DNA of 64,000 nucleotides from Methylomonas sp. EFPC3 (GTDB taxonomy: Bacteria; Pseudomonadota; Gammaproteobacteria; Methylococcales; Methylomonadaceae): contig NZ_CP116398.1 in NCBI RefSeq assembly GCF_029643245.1, forward strand, positions 2,976,001-3,040,000, given 5' to 3'. Both the position numbers and the translations under genes were made by a program. Under the pieces are notes generated by a model. That model was given only the letters and a program-made list of their open reading frames with translations. It did not search any database and had not been told where the DNA came from. Positions 36,153 through 40,605 of the stretch are shown here, piece after piece; within the stretch, counting starts at the first letter, position 1, and every line of letters begins with the position of its first letter.

Positions 36153-36260
36153 ACTCGCCGCAATCGGCCAATAAATTTTGTGGATCAGTTACGGCTGAGG
36201 CTTGTCATGCTTGAATAAGGCTCTTAAAGTGTGGCGCTTTTACGCACTTTGAAGATGACT

Positions 36261-36596
36261 ATGCACGACTATCCGGAAAAAACTTGCGATATCGATCGGT
36301 TGGTCCGCCACCCCAAACTGGTGGCGGCTGCGCTAGCCGGGGAAAAGACCCAGCAACGCCGCGACGGCCTCTATGCCTATCCGGGCGAGAGGTTTATTCT
36401 GGAAGGAGTGGAATTCGAGGTAACGGAAGTCGAGCGGCAACGAATCGGCGATATGACGGACGCCGACGCCCGCGCCGAGGGCTATCCGAATTTAGCGATG
36501 TACAAGGATTTGATCTTACGCATGCACAGCGGCATGGAATGGAACGAAGACGGCTTGGTCTGGCTGCACTGCTTCAAGCGTCGCCAGCCGGAATAA
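36261..36596 (+). CDS. ASCH-domain protein
   Basis: About 111 aa from the ATG at 36261 with GAAG 6 bases before it; in-frame starts at 36231 (GTG) and 36255 exist. The sequence has the ASCH pattern: an N-terminal helix, KTQQRRDGLYAYPGERFILEGVEFEVTEVERQRIGDMT and the C-terminal W-x-x-D-G-L-V-W-L-H. ASCH domains share the PUA-like beta barrel and are thought to bind RNA or modified nucleosides (compare E. coli YqfB, an N4-acetylcytidine amidohydrolase). The 3' end overlaps the convergent bufC-like gene by 23 bases. The exact role is unknown. Confidence 0.7.
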   Translation: MHDYPEKTCDIDRLVRHPKLVAAALAGEKTQQRRDGLYAYPGERFILEGVEFEVTEVERQRIGDMTDADARAEGYPNLAMYKDLILRMHSGMEWNEDGLVWLHCFKRRQPE

Positions 36597-37332
36597 CAAT
36601 CCCTTTTTCGGCCAGCTCCCGCAGCATCGATAGACCGTTGCTCTGAATCAGTTGCGGCTCGATCTGCGGGAACTCGGCTGCCACGTTTTGCAAACATTGC
36701 GCGGCCGGCATTGGCCCCCGGTCTTGCAGGATTTGCAACACGCTTAGCGTCAGACCGCTAACCTGCAAAAAGTGGACTTGGTCCATCCCGTCGCGATAAA
36801 CGACCAGACAGGTGGCCTGCTCGGGCGGCTGCAACGGCAGGAAATCGGGACCGATCCGATGCACCGGATATTGGTACAACAACGGCAAAGCCAGTTCTGA
36901 CAGCGCAATCCTTTGGGTCGTTAGGCTGTCCAAAAACGCTTGATCACCTAGTTTCGGCGCGTCCTTGGCAATCGACAGCGCCATTTCCACCCACTCATAA
37001 TGCGCTAGCTCCAGCAGGAAGGGATAATCCTCCGGATTGCTGCGCTCGTTTTGCAAATACTCCAAAAACTCTTCGGCAATCTCGGAAAAATACGGCGTTC
37101 GGCAACGGTGGCGGGAAAAAAAATCCCGGGTCAATTCCAGCCATTGGGCATCATCCAGAATCGCCCTGACCACCGGGAAATTGCTGGCGATGAAGCTGTC
37201 TATATTGTTAAAAAACAATTCACGGTACATCGCCATCCGTCCAGGCTCGACATCGGCCGGGGGCGGATTACTATGCGGATCGCGGATATAGGCGGCAAAG
37301 CGCTGTTGCGTAATTTGAAAAGATGCCGCCAT
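36574..37332 (-). CDS. DUF2063 protein, HvfC/BufC-like partner of the MNIO enzyme
   Basis: 252 aa from the ATG at 37332, which overlaps the TGA of the MNIO gene in TGATG; the frame extends upstream but only inside that gene. The N-terminal DUF2063 signature is QQRFAAYIRDP...RMAMYRELFFNNIDSFIASNFPVVRAIL followed by LTRDFFSRHRCRTPYFSEI. In HvfBC/BufBC systems this protein binds the precursor and positions it for the MNIO (DUF692) enzyme. Translational coupling to the MNIO gene agrees with a 1:1 complex. The C-terminal half (about 150-250) is a second domain with winged-helix-like predicted content. Confidence 0.88.
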   Translation of the reverse strand: MAASFQITQQRFAAYIRDPHSNPPPADVEPGRMAMYRELFFNNIDSFIASNFPVVRAILDDAQWLELTRDFFSRHRCRTPYFSEIAEEFLEYLQNERSNPEDYPFLLELAHYEWVEMALSIAKDAPKLGDQAFLDSLTTQRIALSELALPLLYQYPVHRIGPDFLPLQPPEQATCLVVYRDGMDQVHFLQVSGLTLSVLQILQDRGPMPAAQCLQNVAAEFPQIEPQLIQSNGLSMLRELAEKGIVIPAGDA

Positions 37333-38180
37333 CACGCCACCCGTTTTTCGGCGGCAACGGCATGCTGTTGAACGGCGCGGATCGTGTCCACTTCCTGTAA
37401 CAATTCGGCCAAAGGTGGAATGTTGAAATCCCGTTCCAATAAGGTTGGGAAAACGCCGAACAGGCGGTAAGCCGTCTCCAGTAACTTCCAAACCGGATCG
37501 ATCACCGTCGCGCCGTGGGTATCGACCAAAAAGTCTTCGGCTTCAACGTAATGACCGGCGATGTGGGCGTAAGCGATGCGGTCGCCGGGCATGGCCCGTA
37601 GAAAGGCTTCCGCGTCGTACCCGTGGTTGACGCTATTGACGTAGATGTTATTGATGTCGATCAGCACATCGCAATCGGCCTCTGCGACGACGGCATTGAA
37701 GAAATCGATCTCGGCCATCTCCCGGCCTGGCGCGGCATAGTAAGAAATATTTTCGATGGCAATGCGCTGTTCGAGAATGTCTTGCACCCGGCGAATTCGC
37801 GCGGCGACATGTTTGACCGCATCCTCGGTAAACGGCATCGGCATCAAATCGTACAGATGTCCGCCGTGGCTGCAATAACTGAGGTGTTCGCTGTAAAACT
37901 TGATGCCGTGTTCGGCGATGAACCGTTTCAAATCGCGCACGAATTGCTCGTCGAGCGGATCGCTGCTGCCAATGGACAAAGACAAGCCGTGGCAAACAAA
38001 GTCGAAACGCTCGGTCATGGCCCGAAATTGTTTGCCGAACTTGCCGCCTATCGGCATCCAATTCTCCGGCGCTACCTCGTAAAACCCGACTTGCGCCGGC
38101 GGCTGCTCGACAATCTCGCTCAAAAACGAACGACGCAAACCCAGGCCGACACCGTGGACCAGATTGCGGACGCTTTGCAT
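37332..38180 (-). CDS. MNIO-family (DUF692) peptide-modifying enzyme, HvfB/BufB-like
   Basis: 282 aa multinuclear non-heme-iron oxidative enzyme with a TIM-barrel fold. Family motifs in order: HGVGLGLRRSFLSEI, GFYEVAPENWM, FVCHGLSLSIG, YSEHLSYC, IENISYY, LIDINNIYVNS, YAHIAGH, VDTHGATV and LLERDFNIPP, which include the His, Glu and Asp metal ligands of the MbnB/HvfB family. Relatives modify cysteines in peptide precursors to oxazolone-thioamide or thiooxazole groups. The secreted CG-rich protein two genes upstream is the obvious substrate. It starts 4 bases from the DedA stop and is coupled to the DUF2063 gene. Confidence 0.92.
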   Translation of the reverse strand: MQSVRNLVHGVGLGLRRSFLSEIVEQPPAQVGFYEVAPENWMPIGGKFGKQFRAMTERFDFVCHGLSLSIGSSDPLDEQFVRDLKRFIAEHGIKFYSEHLSYCSHGGHLYDLMPMPFTEDAVKHVAARIRRVQDILEQRIAIENISYYAAPGREMAEIDFFNAVVAEADCDVLIDINNIYVNSVNHGYDAEAFLRAMPGDRIAYAHIAGHYVEAEDFLVDTHGATVIDPVWKLLETAYRLFGVFPTLLERDFNIPPLAELLQEVDTIRAVQQHAVAAEKRVA

Positions 38181-38183
38181 CGC

Positions 38184-38747
38184 TTATTCTTCCGGTTTAT
38201 GCGTCGAACGCCAAAACAAGGCCAAGCCTATCGCCACCAGCACGCCCAGGATATACATTTCGTATTTTTTGACCTGGCCCATGATGGACTCGGCAAACTG
38301 GCCAAAGGTATAACCCAAGTAACCGACTGCTATCGCCCAGATCGCCGCACCCAAAAAATTCAAGGCAAAAAACTTAAGCGGATGAATCTTGCTGGCGCCG
38401 ATTACGAACGGCGTTACGTTACGCACACCGTAAAGAAAGCGGAAACCGAGAATCACCGGTATCTGGTGCTTGTGCAGTAGATCGAACACTTTGTCGGTTT
38501 TACTGTGCCAGAGCGGCCTTTTTTCCAAAAAGGAGATGCCTTTCCACCGCCCCAGATAAAAAAAGGTCTGGTCGCCGGCAAAAGTACCGAGGAACGCTGT
38601 CAACATGACCCATTCCAACGCCAAATAGCCGCTATGCGCCAAAAAGCCGGCAATCACCAAAATGGTTTCGCCTTCCAGATAGGTACCGATAAATAAGGCC
38701 AGATAACCGTAATCGATAACCAGCTGTTGTATATCCTGAAAATCCAT
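38184..38747 (-). CDS. DedA-family membrane protein
   Basis: 187 aa integral membrane protein. DedA (VTT domain) features: GTYLEGETILVIAGFLAHSGYL with the conserved Glu, LGTFAGDQTFFYLGRWKG, and RFLYGVRNVTPFVIGASKI with the conserved Arg pair and Gly, then two further membrane segments. DedA proteins include undecaprenyl-phosphate and lipid scramblases/transporters that depend on the proton gradient. It lies inside the RiPP operon, 31 bases after the precursor and 3 bases before the MNIO gene, where related operons usually carry DoxX. This suggests a role in the pathway, or simple co-transcription. Confidence 0.9.
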   Translation of the reverse strand: MDFQDIQQLVIDYGYLALFIGTYLEGETILVIAGFLAHSGYLALEWVMLTAFLGTFAGDQTFFYLGRWKGISFLEKRPLWHSKTDKVFDLLHKHQIPVILGFRFLYGVRNVTPFVIGASKIHPLKFFALNFLGAAIWAIAVGYLGYTFGQFAESIMGQVKKYEMYILGVLVAIGLALFWRSTHKPEE

Positions 38748-38778
38748 AACGTCGATTCAATACCGTCAGGTCGGAGAA

Positions 38779-39333
38779 TTAATGGCCGGCCGCTTTGTCG
38801 GCATCCATTTTGCTGCCGCAACTGCCTTCACCGCCTTTCATCATGGCGCCGCAGCTATGTTCACCGGCTTTTTTATCCGGATTCATCATCGCACCGCAGC
38901 TACCTTCTTCGGCTTGTTTCGGTTTGTCGGCGTTACCATGATCCATACCGCCCATCATGCCCATGCCGCAGGCGCCTTCCTTGCCTTTCATCATCGCACC
39001 GCACATGTTTTCCATGCCCGGCTTCATTTTGCCGCCGCTCATCATGCCGCCGCACATGCCTTCGCCACAGGAACCTTCGGTTTTCTTCGCATCGGATTTT
39101 TTAGCGCCGGCAGCCACTTTCTTACCGTTGCTGTCCATCGCATTGGAACCGCAGGCACCTTGGCTGATTTTGCCGTTGGAATGCTCGGCGTGTGAGGTTG
39201 CAACCTGCATGTAACCGCCGGCCAGTTCCGACAACGCAAACGGATTGGGCTCGGCTTGCGCGTTCGCAGCGATACCGGACAAAAGGGCACCGCCCATTGC
39301 AGCGGCCAACGGAGATTTATTGAATTTTTTCAT
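38779..39333 (-). CDS. Secreted Cys-Gly/Met-rich RiPP precursor, HvfA/bufferin-like
   Basis: 184 aa. A Sec signal peptide (about 1-27, ending ANAQA) is followed by NPFALSELAGGYMQVA, the conserved start of mature proteins in this family. The rest is low in complexity with eight Cys, every one followed by Gly: GACGSN, GSCGEGMCGGMM, NMCGAMM, GACGMGMM, GSCGAMM, HSCGAMM and GSCGSKM. Three sites read EGSCG, close to the EGKCG sites modified in HvfA, and five are followed by Met pairs. Cys and Met richness suggests binding of copper or another soft metal outside the cytoplasm. A good ribosome site (GAGAGGA) precedes the ATG. It heads the operon with DedA, MNIO and DUF2063. Confidence 0.85.
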   Translation of the reverse strand: MKKFNKSPLAAAMGGALLSGIAANAQAEPNPFALSELAGGYMQVATSHAEHSNGKISQGACGSNAMDSNGKKVAAGAKKSDAKKTEGSCGEGMCGGMMSGGKMKPGMENMCGAMMKGKEGACGMGMMGGMDHGNADKPKQAEEGSCGAMMNPDKKAGEHSCGAMMKGGEGSCGSKMDADKAAGH

Positions 39334-39437
39334 TTAGCTATCCTCTCGTGCGTTTTTGTAATTATGTTATCCGGCCTTCGTCCGGCCGCATTACGACGGG
39401 CAAACGTCCTGCTGCTTCGATTCTGATTATTGCATAC

Positions 39438-40269: not shown

Positions 40270-40605
40270 ATGAAAACGTTATCAAGCATTATCCTAAGCG
40301 CACTGTTGCTAGCCGCTACCGGCGCCCTTGCAGAAGAACACGCCGCCACCGCACTGGAACACGCCAATCAGGCCGTCACCCACGGCAAAGCCGGCCATGC
40401 CTCGGTATTGGTAGAACACGCCGAAGCCGCTCTGCCTCATGCCAAAAAAGGCGCCGAAGTTGCCAAAGGCGAAGCCAAAACCCATCTCGATGCCGGCGTC
40501 AAATCGTTGGAAAGCGCGATAGAACACGGCAAGATGGGCCATGCCGACGTTGCGACCAAAGCCGCCGAGGAAGCCGTCGAACATATCAAGGCCGGCAATA
40601 AATAA
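40270..40605 (+). CDS. SmbP-like small His-rich periplasmic metal-binding protein
   Basis: 111 aa. A Sec signal peptide (about 1-21, ending ALAEE) precedes an Ala/His-rich helical protein built from irregular repeats such as ALEHANQAVTHGKAGHA, LVEHAEAALPHAKKGAE and SAIEHGKMGHADVA. This is the pattern of SmbP, the small copper-binding protein first known from Nitrosomonas. Regular placement of His on one helix face fits surface metal binding. A strong ribosome site GGGGG precedes the ATG. It lies 1 kb from the Cys/Met-rich precursor operon, in the opposite orientation. Confidence 0.85.
   Translation: MKTLSSIILSALLLAATGALAEEHAATALEHANQAVTHGKAGHASVLVEHAEAALPHAKKGAEVAKGEAKTHLDAGVKSLESAIEHGKMGHADVATKAAEEAVEHIKAGNK

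Follow-up and report, generated by a model that had tools for sequence, protein, structure and literature searches.

The window analyzed here, a 64,000-nucleotide stretch (positions 2976001-3040000) of the 4.44 Mb chromosome of Methylomonas sp. EFPC3, harbors a minus-strand operon of four genes encoding, in this order, a precursor of a ribosomally synthesized and post-translationally modified peptide (RiPP), a DedA-type membrane protein, a peptide maturase of the MNIO (DUF692) family and its DUF2063 partner. The operon is an EGKCG-type captophorin operon, akin to those of oxazolin and fontiphorin, and appears to represent a variant specific to a methanotroph family, with a remodelled Met-pair core. 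In this family, the lysine preceding the cysteine is mostly replaced by alanine or serine and a C-G-x-Met-Met motif is added, resulting in a new core. The RiPP-type nature of the locus and the kind of product are predicted from sequence, and we consider it probable that the operon makes a captophorin-type RiPP acting as a periplasmic copper buffer for the methanotroph, most likely a thiooxazole/methionine copper(I) buffer.

The precursor (38779..39333, minus strand; 184 aa) has a signal-like N-terminus ending in AQA, with a Sec-type signal (MKKFNKSPLAAAMGGALLSGIAANAQA) that was called by eye, and a leader-like segment (NPFALSELAGGYMQVA). All eight of its cysteines are followed by glycine, and seven carry a glutamate three residues before the cysteine (E..CG); the motifs comprise three EGSCG, one EGACG, one EGMCG and four CGxMM. 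Methionine accounts for 12.1% of the mature part (19/157), and none of 200,000 shuffles of these 157 residues reached eight CG, four CGxMM or seven E..CG. The protein is identical to the one encoded at locus L005. Synonymous (dS) and nonsynonymous (dN) divergence was 0.264 and 0.016 relative to Methylomonas sp. SURF-1 (L003), 0.39 and 0.018 relative to L086, and 0.54 and 0.038 between the L006 and L007 precursors, corresponding to dN/dS values of 0.05-0.07 across the three pairs. Since dN is far below dS between Methylomonas strains, the precursor, although of low complexity, is under strong purifying selection. No Pfam match and, in Pfam and NCBIfam, no BufA or DUF2282 match was obtained for the precursor, and a tblastn search against plasmids returned no matches.

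The MNIO gene (37332..38180, minus strand; 282 aa) encodes a maturase of the HvfB type, matching PF05114 (E 9.8e-108) and reaching 440.8 bits on the NCBI profile for HvfB (NF003818, cut-off 360), as compared to 274.8 for BufB (cut-off 310) and 53.9 for MbnB (cut-off 325). It is 99% identical to the MNIO of Methylomonas koyamae SM2, and its nearest solved relative is 3BWW (E 2.3e-74). The adjoining HvfC-type partner gene (36574..37332, minus strand; PME1) matches PF09836 (E 3.4e-28) and NGO1945_C (PF22106), scores 308.4 bits on the HvfC profile (NF050145, cut-off 142) and has a solved relative in 3DEE (E 2.2e-11). The stop codon of the MNIO gene (TGA, 37334-37332) and the start codon of the partner gene (ATG, 37332-37330) overlap by one base, as TGATG. 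According to the available text of PMC13097082, Arg15, Arg16, Asp249 and Phe250 of FonB serve in recognition and catalysis in the Lys-Cys captophorin MNIO group; they are matched by R16, R17, D251 and F252 of the window MNIO. Across 79 methanotroph MNIOs (without L069, whose MNIO is cut at the locus end), these positions are R in 78 (S in one), R in 79, D in 78 (one gap) and F in 77 (one Y, one gap), and across 17 class MNIOs from outside the family they are R in 14 (K in three), R in 17, D in 17 and F in 16 (one L). The BufB-type paralogue in the same genome has R, S, D and A. By profile score and residue pattern, the window MNIO is assigned to the HvfB/Lys-Cys group, so that two hallmarks of a captophorin operon, an MNIO of this group and an adjoining DUF2063 partner, are present.

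The initial annotation of this DNA had described a secreted precursor with eight C-G cysteines, three of them in EGSCG, in a RiPP-type operon with HvfABC-like enzymes, the MNIO and DUF2063 genes being coupled at TGATG, and had suggested a methanotroph as host; all of this agrees with the data above, except that the DedA gene between precursor and MNIO had been overlooked. Its view of the precursor as expanded, and of known systems as carrying fewer sites, was rejected from published counts: the accessible parts of the respective papers give up to 58 cysteines in known precursors (PMC12452194), seven modified sites in fontiphorin (PMC13097082) and five to eight cysteines in MmrA (PMC12538549).

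The annotation had further proposed that the EGSCG and CG-MM variant be sought in other methanotrophs, and it indeed recurs within the methanotroph family of the host. Among the named MNIO loci, which are the best 80 of 354 and include the truncated L069 added by hand, HvfC lies next to the MNIO in 79, the sequence stopping at the MNIO in the remaining one; 67 of the 80 have a precursor upstream of the MNIO. These linked precursors were chosen as the upstream open reading frame with most CG motifs, with at least three CG and a leader-like motif required, and precursors with fewer CG would escape this choice. The 13 loci without a precursor comprise four with less than 250 bp of upstream sequence, L056 with a short two-Cys homologue found later, L073 with a homologue broken by unknown bases, and seven MNIO loci with none beside the MNIO.

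The 67 linked precursors contain 589 cysteines, of which 502 are followed by glycine; the residue before the cysteine is alanine in 223 cases, serine in 169 and lysine in 103, with EGACG occurring 97 times, EGSCG 90 times and EGKCG 61 times. CGxMM is present in 64 of them (exceptions L053, L057 and L064), and a four-Cys module of roughly the form CGE..CG.MM...KM..GME..CG.MMK..EG.CG in 38. For comparison, the 28 best loci were taken from 97 class genomes outside the family with a precursor-model match, and one of these loci (L136), which yielded no precursor, was dropped; the model was built on methanotroph rows, and this set therefore leans to methanotroph-like sequences. EGKCG occurs at least once in each of the 27 usable homologues outside the family (L128 being cut by a contig end); CGxMM is absent from all of them, and EGSCG appears once, in one homologue. 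Methionine content is 6.8-17.5% in the linked precursors and up to 11.9% outside the family; because the two ranges overlap, the Met pair after Cys-Gly, and not methionine content, distinguishes the family. At the DNA level, a pattern for C-G-x-M-M-K-G is found in 130 of the 151 family genomes, covering 26 of 29 genera, five genomes of genus g11 (G010, G037, G060, G078 and G093) having a precursor without it. In a class sample of 369 genomes, two of which belong to the methanotroph family, the pattern occurs in two of the 367 outside-family genomes (G276 and G491), neither site being a precursor-model match. Within the sample, the Met-pair core is a feature of this methanotroph family, and not of every genus in it. 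No description of such a variant or locus in methanotrophs was found in the literature titles and abstracts searched; supplementary tables may list such proteins. 'Methylo' is absent from the main texts, reference lists aside, of PMC12452194 and PMC13097082.

Several observations weigh against reading the locus as a captophorin operon with a copper-buffering product. The window precursor has no EGKCG, the repeated motif expected of the HvfA family, and stays under both NCBIfam HvfA cut-offs (26.5 of 95 bits on NF050188 and 16.0 of 19.5 on NF050137). Serine or methionine before the cysteine is not among the position-3 variants of FonBC substrates in the available text of PMC13097082; methionine makes up 11.8-11.9% of two class homologues from outside the family, so high methionine alone is not special; no DoxX gene is present among the four operon genes; three family genomes (G006, G035 and G116) have a precursor match without an MNIO match; and some relatives carry the precursor away from the MNIO. 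Some of these points are softened by further data. NF050137 is passed by four of five tested family relatives, the fifth scoring 19.1, while NF050188 is passed by none of the five; since relatives pass NF050137, the window precursor represents a diverged branch of the HvfA family rather than a separate family. In line with this, our precursor model A1 finds class-wide EGKCG proteins with a similar NPF...GY signal/leader, as expected of HvfA-family members. The fontiphorin operon, as far as PMC13097082 was available, likewise lacks DoxX. From the same text, FonBC tolerates alanine, arginine or threonine before the cysteine, and its position-5 series allowed only alanine besides glycine after it, with one Cys-Tyr substrate modified once. 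Because of these tolerances, EGSCG and EGACG are plausible substrates.

With respect to linkage, the MNIO query matches 145 and the precursor model 147 of the 151 family genomes; both genes are found in 144 and neither in three (G059, G106 and G134), while G045 has a weaker MNIO match (E 1.8e-65) without a precursor. On the basis of 150 listed precursor matches in 128 genomes, a precursor lies no more than 3 kb from the best MNIO in 107, of which 14 also carry a listed unlinked precursor. Among these matches, at most 21 of the 128 genomes lack a precursor within that distance, two of them having no MNIO match; this number is an upper bound, since further matches exist beyond those listed and a linked match for G002 appeared later. 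The initial annotation had named homologues regularly lacking a neighboring MNIO gene as evidence against its proposal, and this applies in part: unlinked precursors do occur, but 144 of 151 genomes hold both genes, and unlinked precursors therefore probably rely on an MNIO acting in trans. Outside the family, 10 of the 27 EGKCG precursors (L118, L125, L127, L128, which ends at a contig edge, L130, L135, L137, L138, L142 and L143) have no MNIO match within the flank of about 1.5 kb, indicating that unlinked precursors are common.

Unlinked precursors bear on an alternative that we consider unlikely, namely that the window precursor stays unmodified and acts as a Cys/Met-rich copper sponge in the periplasm, with the MNIO mainly serving another, EGKCG-type precursor. 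Unmodified CGxMM and Met-rich repeats can bind copper(I). In all 11 genomes of genus g13, the listed precursor matches and the best MNIO are on different contigs, Met-rich precursors (L154, L155, L156 and L163) being among them, and the window precursor has lost the lysine before the cysteine. However, the precursor linked to the MNIO in the window is the Met-rich one and not an EGKCG-type one, it keeps after every cysteine the glycine favored by FonBC, and 67 of the 80 named loci have a precursor upstream of the MNIO. As a separate observation, unlinked homologues of g13 adjoin a gene reading as BamA-like, these homologues being Met-rich in L154 and L155 and short with two cysteines in L158.

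Each of 12 sampled genomes of the genus has two precursor-model matches. The second HvfA-like precursor of the Methylomonas sp. EFPC3 genome (4345943-4346281; about 113 aa from an inner Met, minus strand, L144 4941-5282 or G000:C1 ~4345940-4346281) is far from both MNIOs of the genome, keeps EGKCG-like sites (CGEGKCG, EGKCA) and scores 19.3 on NF050137, just under the 19.5 cut-off. As no MNIO gene is nearby, modification in trans is implied, and the MNIO pair of the window probably also modifies this precursor. The available part of PMC12452194 already describes genomes in which several precursors accompany a single MNIO pair, and an unlinked second precursor is therefore not new in kind; it bears on whether a single MNIO pair can modify several substrates, which that text does not settle. 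The second precursor adjoins iscR, an iscS-like gene, iscA and def, and the isc neighborhood is found in five of five Methylomonas loci. This placement beside iscR-iscS-iscA, together with the identity of gold-induced 'gig' operons as bufferin operons (PMC12452194, available part), would fit a system answering another stress (gold, oxidative or Fe-S damage) with copper binding secondary, which we regard as very unlikely given that published members bind copper and that the isc neighborhood occurs in none of 12 loci of other genera.

A separate bufferin-type operon is present in the same genome (L002 1096-3567; G000:C1 near 1486906). Its MNIO passes the BufB cut-off (372.8 over 310) and scores 69.0 on MbnB, its precursor has a BufA2 match under the cut-off (31.9 of 60), and its DUF2063-like partner reaches 36.1 on HvfC, under 142. 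The operon also includes a membrane protein reading as DoxX-like.

Copper buffering by the window product could proceed as follows. The DUF2063 partner would bind the precursor in the cytoplasm via its signal/leader part, the signal peptide probably doubling as leader, as described in the available parts of PMC13419390 and PMC12452194. By homology, the MNIO-partner pair is expected to convert X-Cys-Gly to 5-thiooxazole, the iron-dependent MNIO oxidizing up to eight such sites with a loss of four hydrogens per cysteine. By analogy, the modified product would leave the cytoplasm through Sec and stay in the periplasm, where the thiooxazole sulfur, probably with neighboring methionine thioethers, would bind copper(I). 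Met pairs close after CG are good additional copper(I) ligands, and we infer such a role for those of the window product. Gammaproteobacterial methanotrophs depend on copper, and the product would buffer it in an organism with a copper-demanding methane monooxygenase.

The methanotroph host is also the starting point for another explanation, in which the product is a secreted extracellular, methanobactin-like metallophore for copper acquisition feeding methane monooxygenase. Neither MNIO of the genome passes the MbnB cut-off, so that no methanobactin maturase was found in it. This explanation is nevertheless improbable: the precursor has a Sec-type signal only, no TonB receptor or exporter is among the four operon genes, the 157 residues after the signal are large for re-uptake, and the available part of PMC12452194 ascribes to bufferins and EGKCG relatives a protective role against copper.

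Returning to the periplasmic buffer, a more far-reaching version can be put forward only tentatively, as a doubtful possibility: the products may form a metallophore class dedicated to the family, with mixed S(thiooxazole)/S(Met) copper(I) sites tuned to store copper and pass it to methane monooxygenase and not only to detoxify it, one MNIO pair maturing both the Met-rich operon precursor and the EGKCG-type precursor coupled to Fe-S assembly. With both genes in 144 of 151 genomes, a near-universal candidate copper binder with a Met-pair core makes copper holding in these methanotrophs directly testable, and, if modification takes place as proposed, the substrates of captophorin MNIOs would widen from EGKCG to EGSCG, EGACG and EGMCG.

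The remaining operon gene (38184..38747, minus strand) encodes a 187-aa DedA/VTT-domain membrane protein (PF09335, E 2.1e-19), separated by 31 bp from the precursor gene and by 3 bp from the MNIO gene. Of the 80 named loci, 10 have DedA between precursor and MNIO, and so does L146. A homologue is present in 33 of the 37 genomes of the genus, the best match being 66-100% identical; in G079 the homologue (79% identical) is far from the MNIO. Because of the placement in only 10 of 80 loci and the distant G079 homologue, a constant role in maturation was rejected as unlikely, and DedA would rather be a lineage-specific passenger or an optional accessory. The word is absent from the main texts of PMC12452194 and PMC13097082.

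Upstream of the precursor, a Shine-Dalgarno-like GAGAGGAT (39340..39347, minus strand) precedes its start, and most of the 13 upstream regions aligned have a similar sequence there; nth (endonuclease III) follows on the same strand. Just past the nth stop, TATGCAATAATCAG (39423-39436, minus strand) is identical in eight of these 13 regions and could be a candidate promoter element; scans for promoters and terminators yielded similar numbers of sites in the real and the shuffled sequence (4 versus 3.5 and 7 versus 7.0). On the far side of nth from the precursor, a plus-strand gene (40270-40605) encodes a small metal-binding protein (SMBP, PF16785, E 3e-37) with several histidines and a signal-like start, possibly a further metal-handling gene. 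Beyond the end of the DUF2063 gene, a 121-aa open reading frame (36231-36596, plus strand) has a weak ASCH-like match only (E 0.15), and a similar protein adjoins the operon in L146.

Among known systems, methanobactin (MbnABC) shares with the window MNIO chemistry on cysteine and methanotroph hosts; membership is ruled out by MbnB scores of 53.9 for the window MNIO and 69.0 for the other MNIO against a cut-off of 325, and methanobactin precursors have no signal peptide according to the available part of PMC12452194. Bufferins with BufB share an MNIO, a DUF2063 protein and a secreted Cys precursor, but membership (BufA1/BufA2) is ruled out by the BufB score of 274.8 under 310 and by a precursor without a BufA or DUF2282 match. 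Bulbicupramide (MmrABC, Microbulbifer) shares the MNIO and DUF2063 pair, five to eight cysteines in repeats and lineage-wide conservation of the cluster; it has EGKCG cassettes, and CGxMM, present in the window precursor, is not described for it in the available text of PMC12538549. The terms 'EGSCG', 'Met-rich' and 'DedA' are absent from the main text of PMC13097082 on fontiphorin. Oxazolin (HvfABC, Haemophilus influenzae) shares an HvfB-type MNIO and HvfC over their cut-offs, a signal peptide and Cys-Gly repeats, whereas the window precursor is devoid of EGKCG, has serine, alanine or methionine before the cysteine and carries CGxMM, and the operon includes DedA and lacks DoxX. Fontiphorin (FonABC) and captophorins, as described in the available text of PMC13097082, share the minimal A-B-C logic, the R-R and D-F active-site residues and Cys-Gly dyads, fontiphorin differing from the window precursor in its EGKCG/EAKCG repeats. 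Copper binding is published, in the accessible parts of the literature, for fontiphorin, gonophorin, oxazolin and bulbicupramide.

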